Below are positions 55,029 to 61,588 of a DNA stretch of 64,000 bases, piece after piece. How positions within the stretch are numbered: the stretch's first letter is position 1; the number at the start of each line of letters is the position of its first letter. This DNA comes from an uncultured Planctomycetota bacterium (GTDB lineage: Bacteria > Planctomycetota > Phycisphaerae > Sedimentisphaerales > UBA12454): the NCBI GenBank assembly GCA_903847315.1, contig CAINDG010000038.1, forward strand, positions 1 through 64,000, read 5' to 3'. The notes under the pieces were generated by a model that did not search any database, had not been told where the DNA came from, and saw nothing but the letters and a program-made list of their open reading frames with translations. A program made the position numbers and the translations under genes.

Positions 55029-55057
55029 ATGTTAAGAAAAAACGATGCGGAAGTCAA
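55029..55057 (-). promoter_or_regulatory. Sigma70-like promoter of gpmI-mutL
   Basis: Minus-strand TTGACT (55052-55057), 17-bp spacer, TAACAT (55029-55034). It starts 12 nt after the last gsp gene, with no terminator between, so read-through from the gsp operon is possible. Confidence 0.7.
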
Positions 55058-55069
55058 ATATTATCATTG

Positions 55070-55576
55070 TTACTGATAATATATGAATTTAACATCTGCC
55101 TTCCACGCGTCTTTTTCGCCTTTGATTTTTGCAAGTGTCACGTTAGTACACTGCAGGTTCGACCATCGCATATGCATAACAGAAATAAATTTTGAGAATT
55201 TACCGATATCTATTTTATCTATCGTCATCGAGGCGTCCTGATTTATTTGTCCCCCTTTTGTTTTTCGCACCGGACTGGAGCTGAGCTTATACTCGGTCGG
55301 CAATATTCTGCAAAGCTTGGTTACCTGGTCAATGGCGGTGGTATAATCGAACGCCTCGCCGGTCTTTTTCGTTCTGGCATAATCAAGTCTCTGCGGGTCA
55401 AGTTCGCCGAGTATCTGCTCAATAAGTTTTTCAGCTTCAGCGTAATCGTCCATCTCGCTTCTCAAACTGCTTTTGGCGCCGGGAATGCCCAGACCCAAAA
55501 GCCAGAGAGGCCATAAACCGATTAATATCGGTATAAGTACATAATAAAAAATCGGTTTTTTGTAAATGTCTTTCAC
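55070..55576 (-). CDS. Type II secretion GspM/PilO-like inner-membrane protein
   Basis: A 168-residue bitopic protein: a single N-terminal membrane helix (IFYYVLIPILIGLWPLWLLG), a coiled coil (KSSLRSEMDDYAEAEKLIEQ) and a small alpha/beta domain (SMTIDKIDIGKFSKFISVMH), the layout of GspM and PilO. Sequence identity to either is low. Position right after the GspL-like gene and last in the operon supports the assignment. It would pair with GspL in the periplasmic part of the assembly platform. Confidence 0.75.
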   Translation of the reverse strand: MKDIYKKPIFYYVLIPILIGLWPLWLLGLGIPGAKSSLRSEMDDYAEAEKLIEQILGELDPQRLDYARTKKTGEAFDYTTAIDQVTKLCRILPTEYKLSSSPVRKTKGGQINQDASMTIDKIDIGKFSKFISVMHMRWSNLQCTNVTLAKIKGEKDAWKADVKFIYYQ

Positions 55577-57096: not shown

Positions 57097-58521
57097 CTAT
57101 TCGATAATTATACCTATTTGCTGGATTTTTTCTTTATCTTTTTTAATGCCTGCCGTAGCGCAGACTTTTGCCACGCCGCTGGTGGCGATTACACGAATCG
57201 AAAAACAATCGCTTCTGGTCGTTATATACGGCTTGGCTTTATCAATCGACGTATTAAAACTATAAAGCCTCTTTGACAGGTCGTTGACATCCTTGAAAGG
57301 TTCCTGTCTTCTCATTTCGATAATTTGCTTGGCAATTTCAGCCGCGTCTCCTCCGAAGGTAAAGGCCGCTTCAAGCACCTGTCTTGGCGCCGTGTTTATA
57401 TTTACTTTTTGCGTACCCCAGAGGCTGATATATTTCAGAGCCGATTCGGTACGGTTTTCATCTTTGTTTACAGGTTTCGCAAGCGTCTCAAGGTCCACCA
57501 TAGGACTGTGCAGAAGCTTTGCGAAATCCAATGTATTGCCGATATCTGACCTGGTCTGCTGAGTAACTTTCTCTACTATTTTTTCTCTATTCCGCTGTCT
57601 GCTTCGGCTGGATCTTCTTGTGCTGCGTTCTGTCGAGGCCGACTGACTGGTAGAGTTGCTGTCTTTTTGCAATTCTTTGGTAGTTATAACAGTCGGTTTG
57701 AGGTTTATACTGAACGGTTTGATTTCCTTCATCTGCCCAAGTTCTTTCATAAGAGGTTCGATAGCATTCGGCTCCATTTGCATCCATTCGCAAAAAGTCT
57801 GAATAGCGGCTTTCGTCTCTTTTTTGACATTCGGGTCCGAGGAAATGCCCCAGACAAGCGGCAATTTGGCGTTCTCGTCGATAATTTCTATCGTTACGCT
57901 GGCGTCGCCGAATTCTATTTCAACAGGTTTTGTTATATACGGCCATGGCGGCCCGTAAGGACCGCGAACAAAAAGCTCATTCGGTTCCTGCCTCGAATTA
58001 TTGGCGTCATTGACATCATTAACATCGTGCAGCCTGGAAGAAAAACCTGAATTTGTCTGCCTGCTGCTAAAATCGGTTCCGCTCAAATTTTTATCCGCTG
58101 CGGTGTAATTACTGTCATTGGCGTCGGGGCGTCTCAAATCTTTGAAAATAGTAAATAAAGTATTTTTGTTCAGGCTGTTTACGTCAACCTGCACGCCGCG
58201 TTTTTTCGCCCACTCTTCCATCATTGTTCTATATTTCTCATCGCTCATAGTGAAAAGGTCGGAAAAATCCGGCTCGTTCGGCCTTGAAACATAATTAGGG
58301 TCGTTTCCGCTGATTGTCGAAAGGGTATATTTCAGCCCCGATTCGCAGGCGTACCTGGCCGTCTGGTAATCAATCATATACTGCACCCGGTGTTTCCACT
58401 GGCTGACAGCCGAACCCAACCGGTATATCAGCGCCGTAAGCAGTACAAGCACTATCATTGTGAGTATCAGCGCGACACCCGGCTTTTGAGTATAAAACTT
58501 TTTATTTTCGTGAAGGTTCAT
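57097..58521 (-). CDS. gspK: Type II secretion minor pseudopilin GspK
   Basis: A 474-residue minor pseudopilin, longer than the usual 300-350. The N-terminal hydrophobic helix is GVALILTMIVLVLLTALIY. Cleavage would follow QKPG, and the Glu at +5 is absent, as is normal for GspK. The inserted region around 150-215 and a Ser/Arg-rich stretch (SASTERSTRRSSRSRQR near 310) make up the extra length. The C-terminal helix-hairpin-helix-like part has VNINTAPRQVLEAAF and EPFKDVNDLSKRLY. GspK caps the pseudopilus tip with I and J. The start overlaps gspJ by 20 nt. Confidence 0.88.
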   Translation of the reverse strand: MNLHENKKFYTQKPGVALILTMIVLVLLTALIYRLGSAVSQWKHRVQYMIDYQTARYACESGLKYTLSTISGNDPNYVSRPNEPDFSDLFTMSDEKYRTMMEEWAKKRGVQVDVNSLNKNTLFTIFKDLRRPDANDSNYTAADKNLSGTDFSSRQTNSGFSSRLHDVNDVNDANNSRQEPNELFVRGPYGPPWPYITKPVEIEFGDASVTIEIIDENAKLPLVWGISSDPNVKKETKAAIQTFCEWMQMEPNAIEPLMKELGQMKEIKPFSINLKPTVITTKELQKDSNSTSQSASTERSTRRSSRSRQRNREKIVEKVTQQTRSDIGNTLDFAKLLHSPMVDLETLAKPVNKDENRTESALKYISLWGTQKVNINTAPRQVLEAAFTFGGDAAEIAKQIIEMRRQEPFKDVNDLSKRLYSFNTSIDKAKPYITTRSDCFSIRVIATSGVAKVCATAGIKKDKEKIQQIGIIIE

Positions 58522-59425
58522 TTACTTCTTTTTTCCGACGGGCTGACTTGCTATTGGCGTCAGCAGGTTTATTTGGTTTATTCATATCAGCGACTTTATT
58601 GGCGTCCAAGTCTCTATAAACAAATTGATACGGTATCTGCCTGAAACGGTTGATTGCAACAGTTCTTGTTCTTATCGATTCTTCCGGTACTGTTATATTA
58701 CCCAGTAAATCCTGCTGGCGAGGCTCAAATGATATTGAAATCTTCACACCCGGCGGAAAATCCTGTCCCGTCCAGGTCTTAACCGTGTTGTTGTCCACGA
58801 CTGCTTCGATTGCAAAAAAAGTAATGCCGCTGCAAACAGGGACAAAGAGTTCTCTTTCGTATTTTTCTTTCGGCTCTTCGAGCATTTTATCTTCGAGCAT
58901 ATATCCGCTGTGCGCACGGTAGAGAATCAGGCCGTTTGAGTCCGTATCAACCCGGCTCTGCCAGATTATTTTCCCAAAAGTCTGCGGTTTGTCATCCTTA
59001 TCATATATTTTATTCTCGATAATCATCTGTGAGACATTGTAGCCTCTGGTATCGATTTTATTTTGGATGGACATTGTCACATCCGAAGCCGGCAGAGCAA
59101 GCCCATCGACATCTTCAGCGATTCGCTGAAGGATTTCCATCGCCAGGTAACCTGCCTGAAGACGTTTATTCATCGCCGCTTCAGTGCGTTTTATGCCCAT
59201 ATAAACACCGACAACGGCAACCATAATCATCGTGGCAATAGCAAGAGTCGCCATCGCCTCGGCAAGGGTAAACCCTCGACACCTATTCGCGCAGTAGCGT
59301 TGCAAGCTAACAACGCCTGAATTTATAGTACCTTTAGATTCCTCATCTGCGGCTATATCGCAAATAGGTGTGAGGGTAAAGCCTTTTTCGCCGCTATTAT
59401 ATTTTATTTTATCCCGGTGTTTCAT
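58502..59425 (-). CDS. gspJ: Type II secretion minor pseudopilin GspJ with in-frame element insertion
   Basis: A 307-residue minor pseudopilin. The functional prepilin motif is CRG/FTLAEAMATLAIATMIM with Gly51 at -1 and Glu at +5, then a long helix and the GspJ body (MEILQRIAEDVDGLA to TRTVAINRF). The leader is abnormally long because a 100-bp element plus 8-bp duplication (59265-59372) inserted in frame. An earlier GEKG/FTL (Gly15) has lost its helix, and 36 codons separate the two GFTL motifs. The original leader was probably MKHRDKIKYNSGEKG. The start overlaps the gspI stop (ATGA). A charged Lys/Asn-rich tail ends the protein. Confidence 0.85.
   Translation of the reverse strand: MKHRDKIKYNSGEKGFTLTPICDIAADEESKGTINSGVVSLQRYCANRCRGFTLAEAMATLAIATMIMVAVVGVYMGIKRTEAAMNKRLQAGYLAMEILQRIAEDVDGLALPASDVTMSIQNKIDTRGYNVSQMIIENKIYDKDDKPQTFGKIIWQSRVDTDSNGLILYRAHSGYMLEDKMLEEPKEKYERELFVPVCSGITFFAIEAVVDNNTVKTWTGQDFPPGVKISISFEPRQQDLLGNITVPEESIRTRTVAINRFRQIPYQFVYRDLDANKVADMNKPNKPADANSKSARRKKEVNEPSRK
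59273..59372 (-). mobile_element. 100-bp MITE-like element inserted in gspJ
   Basis: Ends are near-perfect inverted repeats: CCCTCGACACCTATTCGCG (59273-59291) and CGCAAATAGGTGTGAGGG (59359-59376, reaching 4 bases into the flanking repeat). Direct 8-bp repeats AGGGTAAA flank it at 59265-59272 and 59373-59380. The net 108-bp gain is a multiple of three and free of stops in the gspJ frame. Confidence 0.7.
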
Positions 59426-60153
59426 TTATTGCCCAATTTCCCTGTTACAGCCTTTAAAAATTGTTCTGCGGGCACTTCGCCCCAATTTTTGTACCCTTCT
59501 GGCGGAGGACCAAAATCCTTTTCCATCTGCGCCCAGGCTTCGGCATCCGCCTGTTGCGAACTCTGCTTGGTCTGCTCCTGCTGCTGTTGTTCCTGTGACT
59601 GCTCCTGCTGCTGTTGCTCCTGTGACTGCTCTTGCTGCTGTTGTCCGTTTTGCTGCTTATTCGATTGCCCCTGAGATTTTTCGTTAGCGTCTTTGGCCGC
59701 CAGCAGATTTTGCTGAGACTGCCATGCGAGTACCTGTTTAACCTGTTCCTTGCTGAGACTTGTGAGCCAGTGAGTCAACTCAATTTTCTGTTCCTTCCCC
59801 TGGCTGTCTGTAAAGTGCGCGGTACATACAGCCCGCATCCACATAAGATTTGAAATCGGCTCATAAAACGATTCTGTCGTCTTCTCCCATTCTATACCGA
59901 GGTTCTTCTCGCTTGTACCGTATTCAACCATATCGACTACGGTGCCCTGAGACAGCAATTTCTCCATATTTTCTCTTGCCACCTCGAACGCATCCATTTT
60001 CATCTGCCAGTCAGCGATGGTATCAACCGCCCGATTCATTACAACAAGCACCGTCGCGGTTATCATCCCGAATATAACCAGCGCAACTGAGACCTCAATG
60101 AGGGTAAAGGCCTTTTGATTCGCCGGCAAATTTTTTCTAAAAACCCATTTCAT
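59422..60153 (-). CDS. gspI: Type II secretion minor pseudopilin GspI-like with Gln-rich tail
   Basis: A 243-residue pseudopilin; the usual GspI is about 120. The ATG at 60153 follows AAGGG at 6 nt. The prepilin motif is NQKA/FTLIEVSVALVIFGMI with Ala at -1 instead of Gly and Glu at +5. After a normal-sized body (to about residue 135) comes a Gln/Glu-rich region with a 9-residue repeat (QQQQEQSQE) and a short conserved-looking end (GPPPEGYKNWGEVPAEQFL). The assignment to GspI rests on operon position between H and J. It overlaps gspH by 17 nt. Confidence 0.8.
   Translation of the reverse strand: MKWVFRKNLPANQKAFTLIEVSVALVIFGMITATVLVVMNRAVDTIADWQMKMDAFEVARENMEKLLSQGTVVDMVEYGTSEKNLGIEWEKTTESFYEPISNLMWMRAVCTAHFTDSQGKEQKIELTHWLTSLSKEQVKQVLAWQSQQNLLAAKDANEKSQGQSNKQQNGQQQQEQSQEQQQQEQSQEQQQQEQTKQSSQQADAEAWAQMEKDFGPPPEGYKNWGEVPAEQFLKAVTGKLGNK
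59572..59643. repeat. 27-bp tandem repeat coding a Gln-rich stretch
   Basis: Unit beginning CTGCTCCTGCTGCTGTTG, 2.7 copies at 59572, 59599 and 59626, encoding QQQQEQSQE units in gspI. Copies differ by single bases. Confidence 0.85.
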
Positions 60154-60712
60154 CCGCAGCCCTTGGCATAAGAACTTCCACATCGCCGTCAACGAGGTCA
60201 ATCATCCTGCTCAACCTGCTGATTACAATCGTATATTGTCTTCCATTCTCGTCCATAACGACTACTTTCCCGCCGTACTGCCAGCCGTTTTTGCCTGCTC
60301 TGAAAAGGGCCGGCGAATTGTTTGTCCAGGCGCCGTCGTCAAACATCACATAAGACAGCTGGAACCGGTCGTTGAAGTTTCCTGTCTGGATAATTTCTTC
60401 ATCCTTTATATCTTCGACAGCGACAAGTCCCGTTGTTATCTCCCGCAGCATATATGAGTTTTGTGTAAAATCGATAATTATTTCGTATCTTTTTCCGGTT
60501 TCAGCCGAGCCTGCTGCCGCCATTTGAAAGAGCTGTACAAGGTCGTACGCCCTGCTTCGGAAACTATCTTTACTGAGCACATCGGAAAGATTTATCATCG
60601 CAATCACCGTGAACATCGCAATAATGAAGAGCACCATAACAACTTCAGCCAGTACCGCCCCTGCTTTGGCAGATGTTTTTTTCAGCAGACAATATGAATC
60701 AGACAGTATCAT
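60137..60712 (-). CDS. gspH: Type II secretion minor pseudopilin GspH-like
   Basis: A 191-residue pseudopilin-like protein. The N-terminal segment SAKAG/AVLAEVVMVLFIIAMFT has Gly at -1 and Glu at +5, but Ala instead of Phe at +1, a variant prepilin site. The body is beta-rich: RYEIIIDFTQNSYMLREI and GKVVVMDENGRQYTIVISRL. Placement between the major pseudopilin gspG and gspI fits GspH. The start overlaps the gspG stop by 4 nt (ATGA). Confidence 0.8.
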   Translation of the reverse strand: MILSDSYCLLKKTSAKAGAVLAEVVMVLFIIAMFTVIAMINLSDVLSKDSFRSRAYDLVQLFQMAAAGSAETGKRYEIIIDFTQNSYMLREITTGLVAVEDIKDEEIIQTGNFNDRFQLSYVMFDDGAWTNNSPALFRAGKNGWQYGGKVVVMDENGRQYTIVISRLSRMIDLVDGDVEVLMPRAADEMGF

Positions 60713-61143
60713 TGTGCATCGGTGCTGTAAAGGTCCGCATCGAAATTTTCGCCGCCTTCCTGACCATCGGCCCCATAACTGATAATTACATAAGGTTTGC
60801 CGCTTTCCGGATAGGCTCGATATATAAAATCATTGCCCCACGCATCCTTTGGCAGGGCCGTCGCATCAAGATATCCGCCCGGCTGGTAATTTTTAATATC
60901 GGTTGGCGCCGTAATCAGAACAGACAATCCCTCTTCTTCGGTCGGATATCTGCCCGTATCCATTTTAAATTGAGCAATCGCATGATGCAGCATTTTCAGG
61001 TTGGCTTTTGTTGTGATAACTTTGGCCTTATCGGTTTGTCCCAGAAAATTCATCGCCCCCAGTGCGGCGAGCAGGCCAACAATGATAATTACCGCCATAA
61101 TTTCAATAAGTGTAAAACCTTTTTGTCTGTTTTTCTGTATCAT
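60709..61143 (-). CDS. gspG: Type II secretion major pseudopilin GspG
   Basis: A 144-residue major pseudopilin. The cleavage site RQKG/FTLIEIMAVIIIVGLLAA is canonical with Glu at +5. The C-terminal calcium-site region has GRYPTEEEGLSVLI, LPKDAWGNDFIYR and ISYGADGQEGGENFDADL, all diagnostic of GspG. It is expected to polymerise into the periplasmic pseudopilus. AAAGG lies 6 nt before the ATG. The gene directly upstream is an inserted four-helix-bundle gene where gspF would normally abut. Confidence 0.95.
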   Translation of the reverse strand: MIQKNRQKGFTLIEIMAVIIIVGLLAALGAMNFLGQTDKAKVITTKANLKMLHHAIAQFKMDTGRYPTEEEGLSVLITAPTDIKNYQPGGYLDATALPKDAWGNDFIYRAYPESGKPYVIISYGADGQEGGENFDADLYSTDAQ

Positions 61144-61216: not shown

Positions 61217-61588
61217 TTACCGCTTTCTTTTTGAATTTAACGTTTTGCGAGCCGCAAAAAATATAGCTTTTAATTCGTTTGCTTCTTCGAGTAATAATTT
61301 AACTTTTGACCTTTGTATTAATTTTTCTTCTGATGAAAAATCTATCCAGAAAATTGATTCATCTGTTTCTTCCAGCACAATGCTTAATTTAGCAGCAAAA
61401 CTGGCTTTTGACTGTGCCAAATTACTGGCTCGATAATTTGCGGCCGCTGACGTGGAACATCTTATCAATTGTCCCGATATGTGATTACCCAATTTCGTCC
61501 CCTCCAGGGCCATTGCAAGCTTCACGCACCGATGGGCAAAATCGTTTGTTCGTTTTTCCATTTGCTTGTATTTACTAATTTCAGCCAT
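61217..61588 (-). CDS. Four-helix-bundle protein (23S rRNA intervening-sequence / S23 family)
   Basis: A 123-residue helical protein of the IVP family. Typical stretches are NDFAHRCVKLAMALEGTKLG, QLIRCSTSAAANYRASNLAQ, FAAKLSIVLEETDESIFW and EANELKAIFFAARKTLN. Relatives occur inside 23S rRNA intervening sequences, as Avd in diversity-generating retroelements, and as stand-alone genes. Function of the stand-alone form is unknown. Here it separates gspF and gspG and is bracketed by ATTGAAGATT-type inverted repeats, which points to a mobile origin. Not a known secretion component. Confidence 0.88.
   Translation of the reverse strand: MAEISKYKQMEKRTNDFAHRCVKLAMALEGTKLGNHISGQLIRCSTSAAANYRASNLAQSKASFAAKLSIVLEETDESIFWIDFSSEEKLIQRSKVKLLLEEANELKAIFFAARKTLNSKRKR

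Follow-up and report, generated by a model that had tools for sequence, protein, structure and literature searches.

The gspJ locus

The window, that is, the whole stretch of 64,000 nucleotides analysed, contains a gsp secretion operon in which a gspJ-like open reading frame (ORF) has gspK, gspI, gspG, and gspF as neighbours (Table 1). The gspJ assignment is based on a class III signal (G/FxxxE) with an N_methyl helix and on the position in the operon between gspI and gspK; a GspJ-specific model did not match the product. The ORF reads MKHRDKIKYNSGEKGF-TLTPICDIAADEESKGTINSGVVSLQRYCANRCRG-FTLAEAMATLAIATMIM, and the Pfam N_methyl model (PF07963) matches residues 47 to 71, i.e., the downstream copy of the cleavage site only.

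The leader of this gene holds an inverted-repeat insert, whose arms form one of only two pairs of that size in the window and whose DNA fold is unusually stable (z = -5.8; 0 of 200 shuffles as stable). As the first-pass annotation had described, the insertion adds 108 bp, contains no in-frame stop, duplicates the GFTL motif, and gives the ORF a long leader. The comparison with close relatives that it suggested shows an empty site: the gspJ leader is uninterrupted in 11 members of the same bacterial family. In one of them (G003), the empty site reads MNRRNKLKFDCSEKGFTLAEAIATLVIATMIM (also given as MNRRNKLKFDCSEKGFTLAEAIATL), with SEKGFTLAEA corresponding to GEKGF[35 aa]FTLAEA in the window. Because these 11 relatives have an uninterrupted leader, we place the gain of the 108 bp in the lineage of the window.

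Table 1. Features of the window that bear on the gspJ insertion, with neighbouring genes and inverted pairs
Feature	Position	Strand	Remarks
MITE-like coding palindromic element	59273..59376	-	104 bp; minus strand CCCTCACACCTATTTGCG...CGCGAATAGGTGTCGAGGG; in-frame reading TLTPICDIAADEESKGTINSGVVSLQRYCANRCRG
Terminal inverted repeat, gene-upstream end	59359..59376	-	CCCTCACACCTATTTGCG
Terminal inverted repeat, gene-downstream end	59273..59291	-	CGCGAATAGGTGTCGAGGG; last codons CGA GGG, Arg(-2) Gly(-1)
Inverted arms	59279..59298 / 59352..59371		20 nt, 80% complementary
Target site duplication TAAA, upstream copy in gene sense	59377..59380		TTTA on minus strand; identical to 59269-59272
Target site duplication TAAA, downstream copy in gene sense	59269..59272		gives Phe(+1) and first base of Thr(+2)
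Regenerated prepilin peptidase site GGG/TTT (predicted from sequence)	59270..59275	-	Gly(-1) from element, Phe(+1) from duplicated target
Host gene, gspJ-like minor pseudopilin	58502..59425	-	307 aa including 51-residue leader
gspI-like minor pseudopilin, element-free	59422..60201	-	KAFTLIEVSVALVIF
gspK-like (T2SSK)	57097..58521	-	PF03934
gspG major pseudopilin, element-free	60709..61143	-	TIGR01710
23S rRNA-intervening-sequence-type protein	61217..61588	-	PF05635; between gspG and gspF in the secretion operon
Second inverted pair	55044..55096		23-nt arms, 7-nt loop, 78% complementary; overlaps 3' end of ORF 55070-55576; possibly a terminator

A family of elements with common ends

The annotation would have counted a lack of further copies of the ends in the genome as evidence against its reading. 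BLAST of a 126-bp block against the window's own genome returned only itself and would have misled that test, because the interiors of the elements differ; it is searches with the ends that recover the family. The end motif GCAAATAGGTGTGRGGG came from relatives, where it occurs as inverted pairs spaced by about 100 bp. A mismatch-tolerant search found 22 such ends in the window's own genome (G000) and 38 in G009, the Lake Pavin sediment MAG Phycisphaerae bacterium LacPavin_0920_SED3_MAG_44_51, with 3 and 1, respectively, for a reversed control pattern. A covariance model built from 22 copies (A1, R1) places about 20 more copies in G000, about 34 in G009, and a few in G003, G006, G005, G001, G010, and G012, with none in G002, G004, G007, G008, or G011. 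An exact-pattern scan of genome contigs returned only the Lake Pavin MAG. In an order-wide exact search, the ends were almost confined to this one bacterial family; one weaker copy (L176) comes from a different family. The ~104-bp element family is found mainly in one family of Phycisphaerae. Rfam gave no family matching the element itself at the element loci.

Model R1 matches the window at 59274-59376 with 56.8 bits (E 1e-11 in the window), the gspJ copy being among the 22 from which the model was built. A chance inverted repeat or an assembly artefact has nothing specific in its favour except the MAG origin of the sequence, and with the DNA fold, this match, and the same structure in independent MAGs all against it, its probability is practically negligible.

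On both sides the family ends are CCCC[C]ACACC[A/T]AT..., inverted, and nearly all copies measure 80 to 110 bp, well within the size of a MITE (<~600 bp) and with no transposase gene. We recognize three subtypes that have their outer bases in common and differ in their interiors: A, CCCCCACACC[A/T]ATTT; B, [T/C]CCCGCACCTATTT, which includes 63-bp forms; and C, CCCCCACACCAATGTAAA. The short B forms (62 to 64 bp; L095, L096, L112, and L122) run CCCCGCACC...GGTGCGGGA, and three of the four have an interior close to ATCGTAGCGATATAGGAAT. Type-C elements (L144, L145, L150, L161, L162, L165, L166, L168, and L159:4404) read roughly ...AAAAATGAAAATAAAATCTTTATCAAAAAAACAGTTTACATTGGTGTGGGGG, like a start codon plus a prepilin leader ending FTLVWG, and their end TTTACATTGGTG resembles DNA encoding the FTLVE motif. 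Another palindrome family, D (CCCGTTAGAG...CTCTAACGGG), resembles these in the style of its ends and duplications. Its copies (L118:1324-1386, L109:1383-1441, and L106:2277-2443) show 4-bp duplications of TTTA, TAAA, TGAA, and CGCA, and one D palindrome lies in frame at a prepilin cleavage site, another inside an A element.

The boundaries of the gspJ element were set by comparison with about 50 copies, where TNNA, usually TTTA or TAAA, borders the C-run and the G-run. Among 37 non-prepilin copies, the two central bases of the flanking tetranucleotides match directly at 41 of 74 positions versus 26 +/- 3.8 in shuffled sets (0 of 5,000), although in many individual copies the duplication is imperfect, usually at these two bases. 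Reading the flanking TTTA/TAAA as an inverted extension of the terminal repeats was rejected, as inverted matches are not enriched. Given the flanks across the family and this duplication test, the element runs from 59273 to 59376 and is flanked by a 4-bp TAAA duplication, and is not the 100-bp block with 8-bp direct repeats (AGGGTAAA) of the first-pass annotation: to judge from the ~50 other copies, whose C-runs and G-runs stop next to TNNA, the right-hand AGGG is part of the element end, so the 8-bp repeat comprises the 4-bp duplication and a partly fortuitous AGGG. Other copies share the ends and carry 4-bp TNNA rather than 8-bp duplications. Terminal inverted repeats and a fixed-length target site duplication, the latter backed by the empty sites, are features of a MITE, and the original view of a MITE-like, non-autonomous element lying in frame at a prepilin cleavage site, analogous to the palindromic elements of Rickettsia, is supported.

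Copies in structural RNAs and other genes

The single RNase P RNA match of G000 (C47:68887-69325, L143:1188-1626; 298 bits) contains an element that extends P3. The RNase P RNA gene of G003 is 338 nt long, with no room for an element, and in that of G006 a B-type palindrome occupies the position of the G000 insert. Related hairpin ends also lie near other parts of the RNase P RNA gene in G005, G009, and G010. STRR repeats, tandem heptanucleotide repeats inserted in cyanobacterial rnpB, are similar in that a repeat occupies an RNase P RNA helix without loss of the gene, but they are not terminal-inverted-repeat elements. Element copies probably also extend P3 of the TPP riboswitch: a match of 53.9 bits (gathering score 54.3) spans an element in the P3 region at L092:1359-1559, and two loci, L128:~445-627 (43.4 bits) and L126:~1350-1546 (24.9 bits, weak), were judged by eye to be TPP-like with an element.

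Protein-coding copies outside the prepilins lie in frame in a UvrC-like gene (L114) and at the start of MurG (L104), and at L169 an element alters the C-terminus of a PstS-like protein. Locus L110, taken by eye for an aminomethyltransferase, was matched by no Pfam or NCBIfam model and was dropped.

Repeated insertion at prepilin cleavage sites

The finding is wider than first proposed. Counting the gspJ copy, 14 insertions occupy one and the same codon of prepilin cleavage sites, spread over four genomes: five in G000, six in G009, two in G001, and one in G005. G000 has about 30 N_methyl prepilins, and those with an element at exactly this codon are the window gspJ and genes at C29:30920, C25:56436, C47:44340, and C7:7417; in G009 they lie on C44, C65, C73, and C72, with two on C11. 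One of these loci (L120, G009 C72:12200-14008) has a gspI-type leader upstream and the start of another prepilin downstream, followed by a frame shift, and is probably a recombination or assembly chimera at the element.

Aligned across prepilin copies, the encoded peptides read ...TPTPI...KLVRG/FTLVE. This likeness is what would be expected of an ancestral long leader carried by a duplicated prepilin gene family, with no insertion at all. We consider such an origin very improbable, since the mature regions of the host genes are related only within orthologous pairs, the same elements occur in intergenic DNA, RNase P RNA, and a TPP riboswitch, and empty orthologous sites exist for at least four genes. 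In addition to gspJ, the C25 prepilin of G000 has an empty ortholog on G009 C26 (LKATVKNEG/FTLAEAMIALVILSIAAAGLLLPF), and both C11 prepilins of G009 have empty orthologous sites on G000 C40, orthology in these cases being assigned by comparing mature N-termini.

In two orthologous pairs, C29/C44 and C47/C65 (L091/L115 and L093/L118), both partners are occupied. Here pS is 0.29 and 0.25 for the elements versus 0.72 and 0.65 for the genes. That the elements have diverged less than their host genes speaks for independent insertion into one site in each of two genera and suggests parallel insertion in orthologous prepilins. On G009 C65, a D-family palindrome occupies the same site just upstream of the A element, in frame and with a TTTA duplication.

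About 21 of the G000 prepilins have TTTA at the Phe-Thr/Ser codons, and five of these are occupied (~24%). By comparison, elements occupy ~13 of ~6,100 intergenic TTTA/TAAA sites (~0.2%), a denominator extrapolated from crude gene calls in one 64-kb window. If all sites had an equal chance under neutrality, the binomial probability of 5 of 20 copies at prepilins would be ~6e-9. No extended DNA target beyond TTTA is seen at non-prepilin, intergenic sites, so such a target is not the cause of the prepilin excess; the excess without it points either to an insertion bias that is invisible in the flanks or to occupied prepilins being favoured.

The missing target motif would also fit pure survivorship, in which elements enter TTTA sites indiscriminately and prepilin leaders belong to the small set of coding positions that take an insert without harm, and the in-frame copies in the UvrC-like gene and at the MurG start and those in RNA helices point the same way. 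We regard this explanation as possible, if on balance doubtful: the prepilin occupancy exceeds that of intergenic TTTA sites some 100-fold, although the latter should accept insertions no less readily, and the suggested parallel insertions in two genera also count against it.

Reading frame and junction codon

The 12 prepilin copies with the host start intact all have a length divisible by three and no stop, as in-frame coding insertions with an open element frame, versus 4 of 33 intergenic copies (Fisher 6e-8), the intergenic class being copies at which no convincing ORF was seen. Gly(-1) comes from the end of the element itself, whose final codon is GGG (in a few cases GGA or GGT); Phe(+1) and the initial base of Thr/Ser(+2) come from the duplicated TTTA. 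In the unmodified element, the -2 codon is TGG (Trp). Arg or Lys replaces it at 9 of 13 prepilin junctions versus 3 of 66 element ends elsewhere (Fisher 6.5e-7), by way of five different codons (AAG, AGG, AGA, CGG, and CGA), and K or R at -2 is common in element-free prepilins of G000. These tallies were compiled by hand from printed sequences, all of them from MAGs; leaving out L120, beside the probable chimera, they become 11 of 11 in frame and 8 of 12 with Arg/Lys. The convergent change at -2 is a sign of selection on the translated leader and indicates, from sequence comparison, that the leader is translated and under selection. Within the elements, pN/pS is similar in prepilin copies (0.49) and intergenic copies (0.56) and does not discriminate between them, so the peptide body seems little constrained, which would be expected if the peptide is discarded.

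Prepilin peptidase sites are characterised by Gly(-1) and Glu(+5). An element that enters a prepilin GF(T/S) motif at its TTTA adds 108 bp and so keeps the reading frame, and the element's own frame is open in one orientation. As the element gives Gly(-1) through its GGG and the duplicated TTTA gives Phe(+1), a prepilin peptidase site is predicted to be regenerated immediately downstream. We propose that the 35-residue element peptide acts as an extended leader, which prepilin peptidase would take off in one piece with the host-coded leader, and that the mature pseudopilin would be left unchanged. Selection after insertion would tune the junction from Trp(-2) to Arg/Lys. We put at roughly 0.8 the probability that the gspJ block is a copy of a non-autonomous MITE-like family and that the regenerated cleavage site lets the prepilin survive. 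Translation, cleavage after the new Gly, and unchanged function are what we infer, the cleavage from knowledge of prepilin peptidase.

Against this model stand the leaders of about 50 residues, longer than those of element-free prepilins here, and the undiscriminating pN/pS values. The element might instead act on the mRNA or the start site, with the hairpin or an internal start codon regulating prepilin translation and the long leader being incidental. An in-frame TTG inside the window copy could give an 11-residue leader, and in L159 (G009 C11:4404) both the start codon and a basic leader, MKSLSKKKYLRINTLVWG/FTIMELLVAVG, come from a type-C element; L154 may be similar. We nevertheless judge such action unlikely as the general explanation, since the 12 start-keeping prepilin copies all retain the upstream start and the frame, neither of which would be needed if initiation were internal.

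Starting again from the regenerated cleavage site, the elements could be selfish ones that use the host prepilin peptidase as a protein-level excision device and colonise prepilins preferentially, with type C bringing its own start and leader. The GGG ends and a TTTA target at GFT would re-create the cleavage site, and the peptide would be discarded with the leader. This extension is offered tentatively, at somewhat short of even odds.

Mobility and relation to known elements

No match to PF01609 (DDE_Tnp_1), PF13701 (IS1380-type), or PF01797 (Y1_Tnp) was found in G000, and all that G009 contains is a 92-aa IS1380 fragment that lacks matching ends. The end, model, and order-wide searches likewise gave no autonomous element with the same ends. 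For lack of an autonomous partner, we call the family MITE-like and do not claim membership of a named IS family; its copies may be moved by a source acting in trans, or the family may have died out in G000.

To our knowledge, REPs make no target site duplication. REP/BIME sequences, which are mobilised by RAYT (Y1) transposases, resemble the present family in being palindromic and present in many copies (PMC3733652), but they measure 20 to 40 bp, whereas the elements here are 104 bp long with a 4-bp duplication, and G000 lacks a Y1_Tnp match. Bacterial MITEs such as ERIC/RU are closer, at ~100 bp with terminal inverted repeats, short duplications, both intergenic and intragenic copies, and some ORFs (PMC2229807, PMC2759123). 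Unlike classical MITEs, however, the family has no parent transposase that we could find in the genome, is biased to prepilins, and has a junction codon adapted after insertion.

The Rickettsia palindromic elements (RPEs; Ogata et al. 2000 Science 290:347, as recounted in PMC10969869) are ~150 bp long and lie in unrelated genes. They have much in common with the elements described here: they are short, palindromic, multi-copy, and non-autonomous, they insert in frame in protein-coding genes, and they have one open frame and a conserved encoded peptide in host genes presumed functional. The likeness claimed is one of features, and it has limits, for our family belongs to a different phylum, has hit the prepilin cleavage site 14 times, and regenerates the processing site. 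We found no paper linking such elements to prepilins in the literature searched, and as far as that literature shows, neither the prepilin bias nor the regenerated cleavage site nor the convergent junction change has been described.

Coding palindromic elements have hitherto been known mainly from Rickettsia, where it is not clear why the host proteins survive. Here the survival can be read from the sequence: the insert falls within a leader peptide that is removed in any case, and it brings along the residue that cleavage requires. Tolerance at the RNA level runs parallel, in P3 of the sole RNase P RNA and probably in the TPP riboswitch, where a palindrome landing in a helix lengthens that helix, the RNA counterpart of landing in a discarded leader. 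The repeated independent insertions at one codon, together with the change from Trp to Arg/Lys at -2, amount to a natural experiment on what prepilin peptidase accepts, and protein-level excision of a mobile element becomes directly testable.
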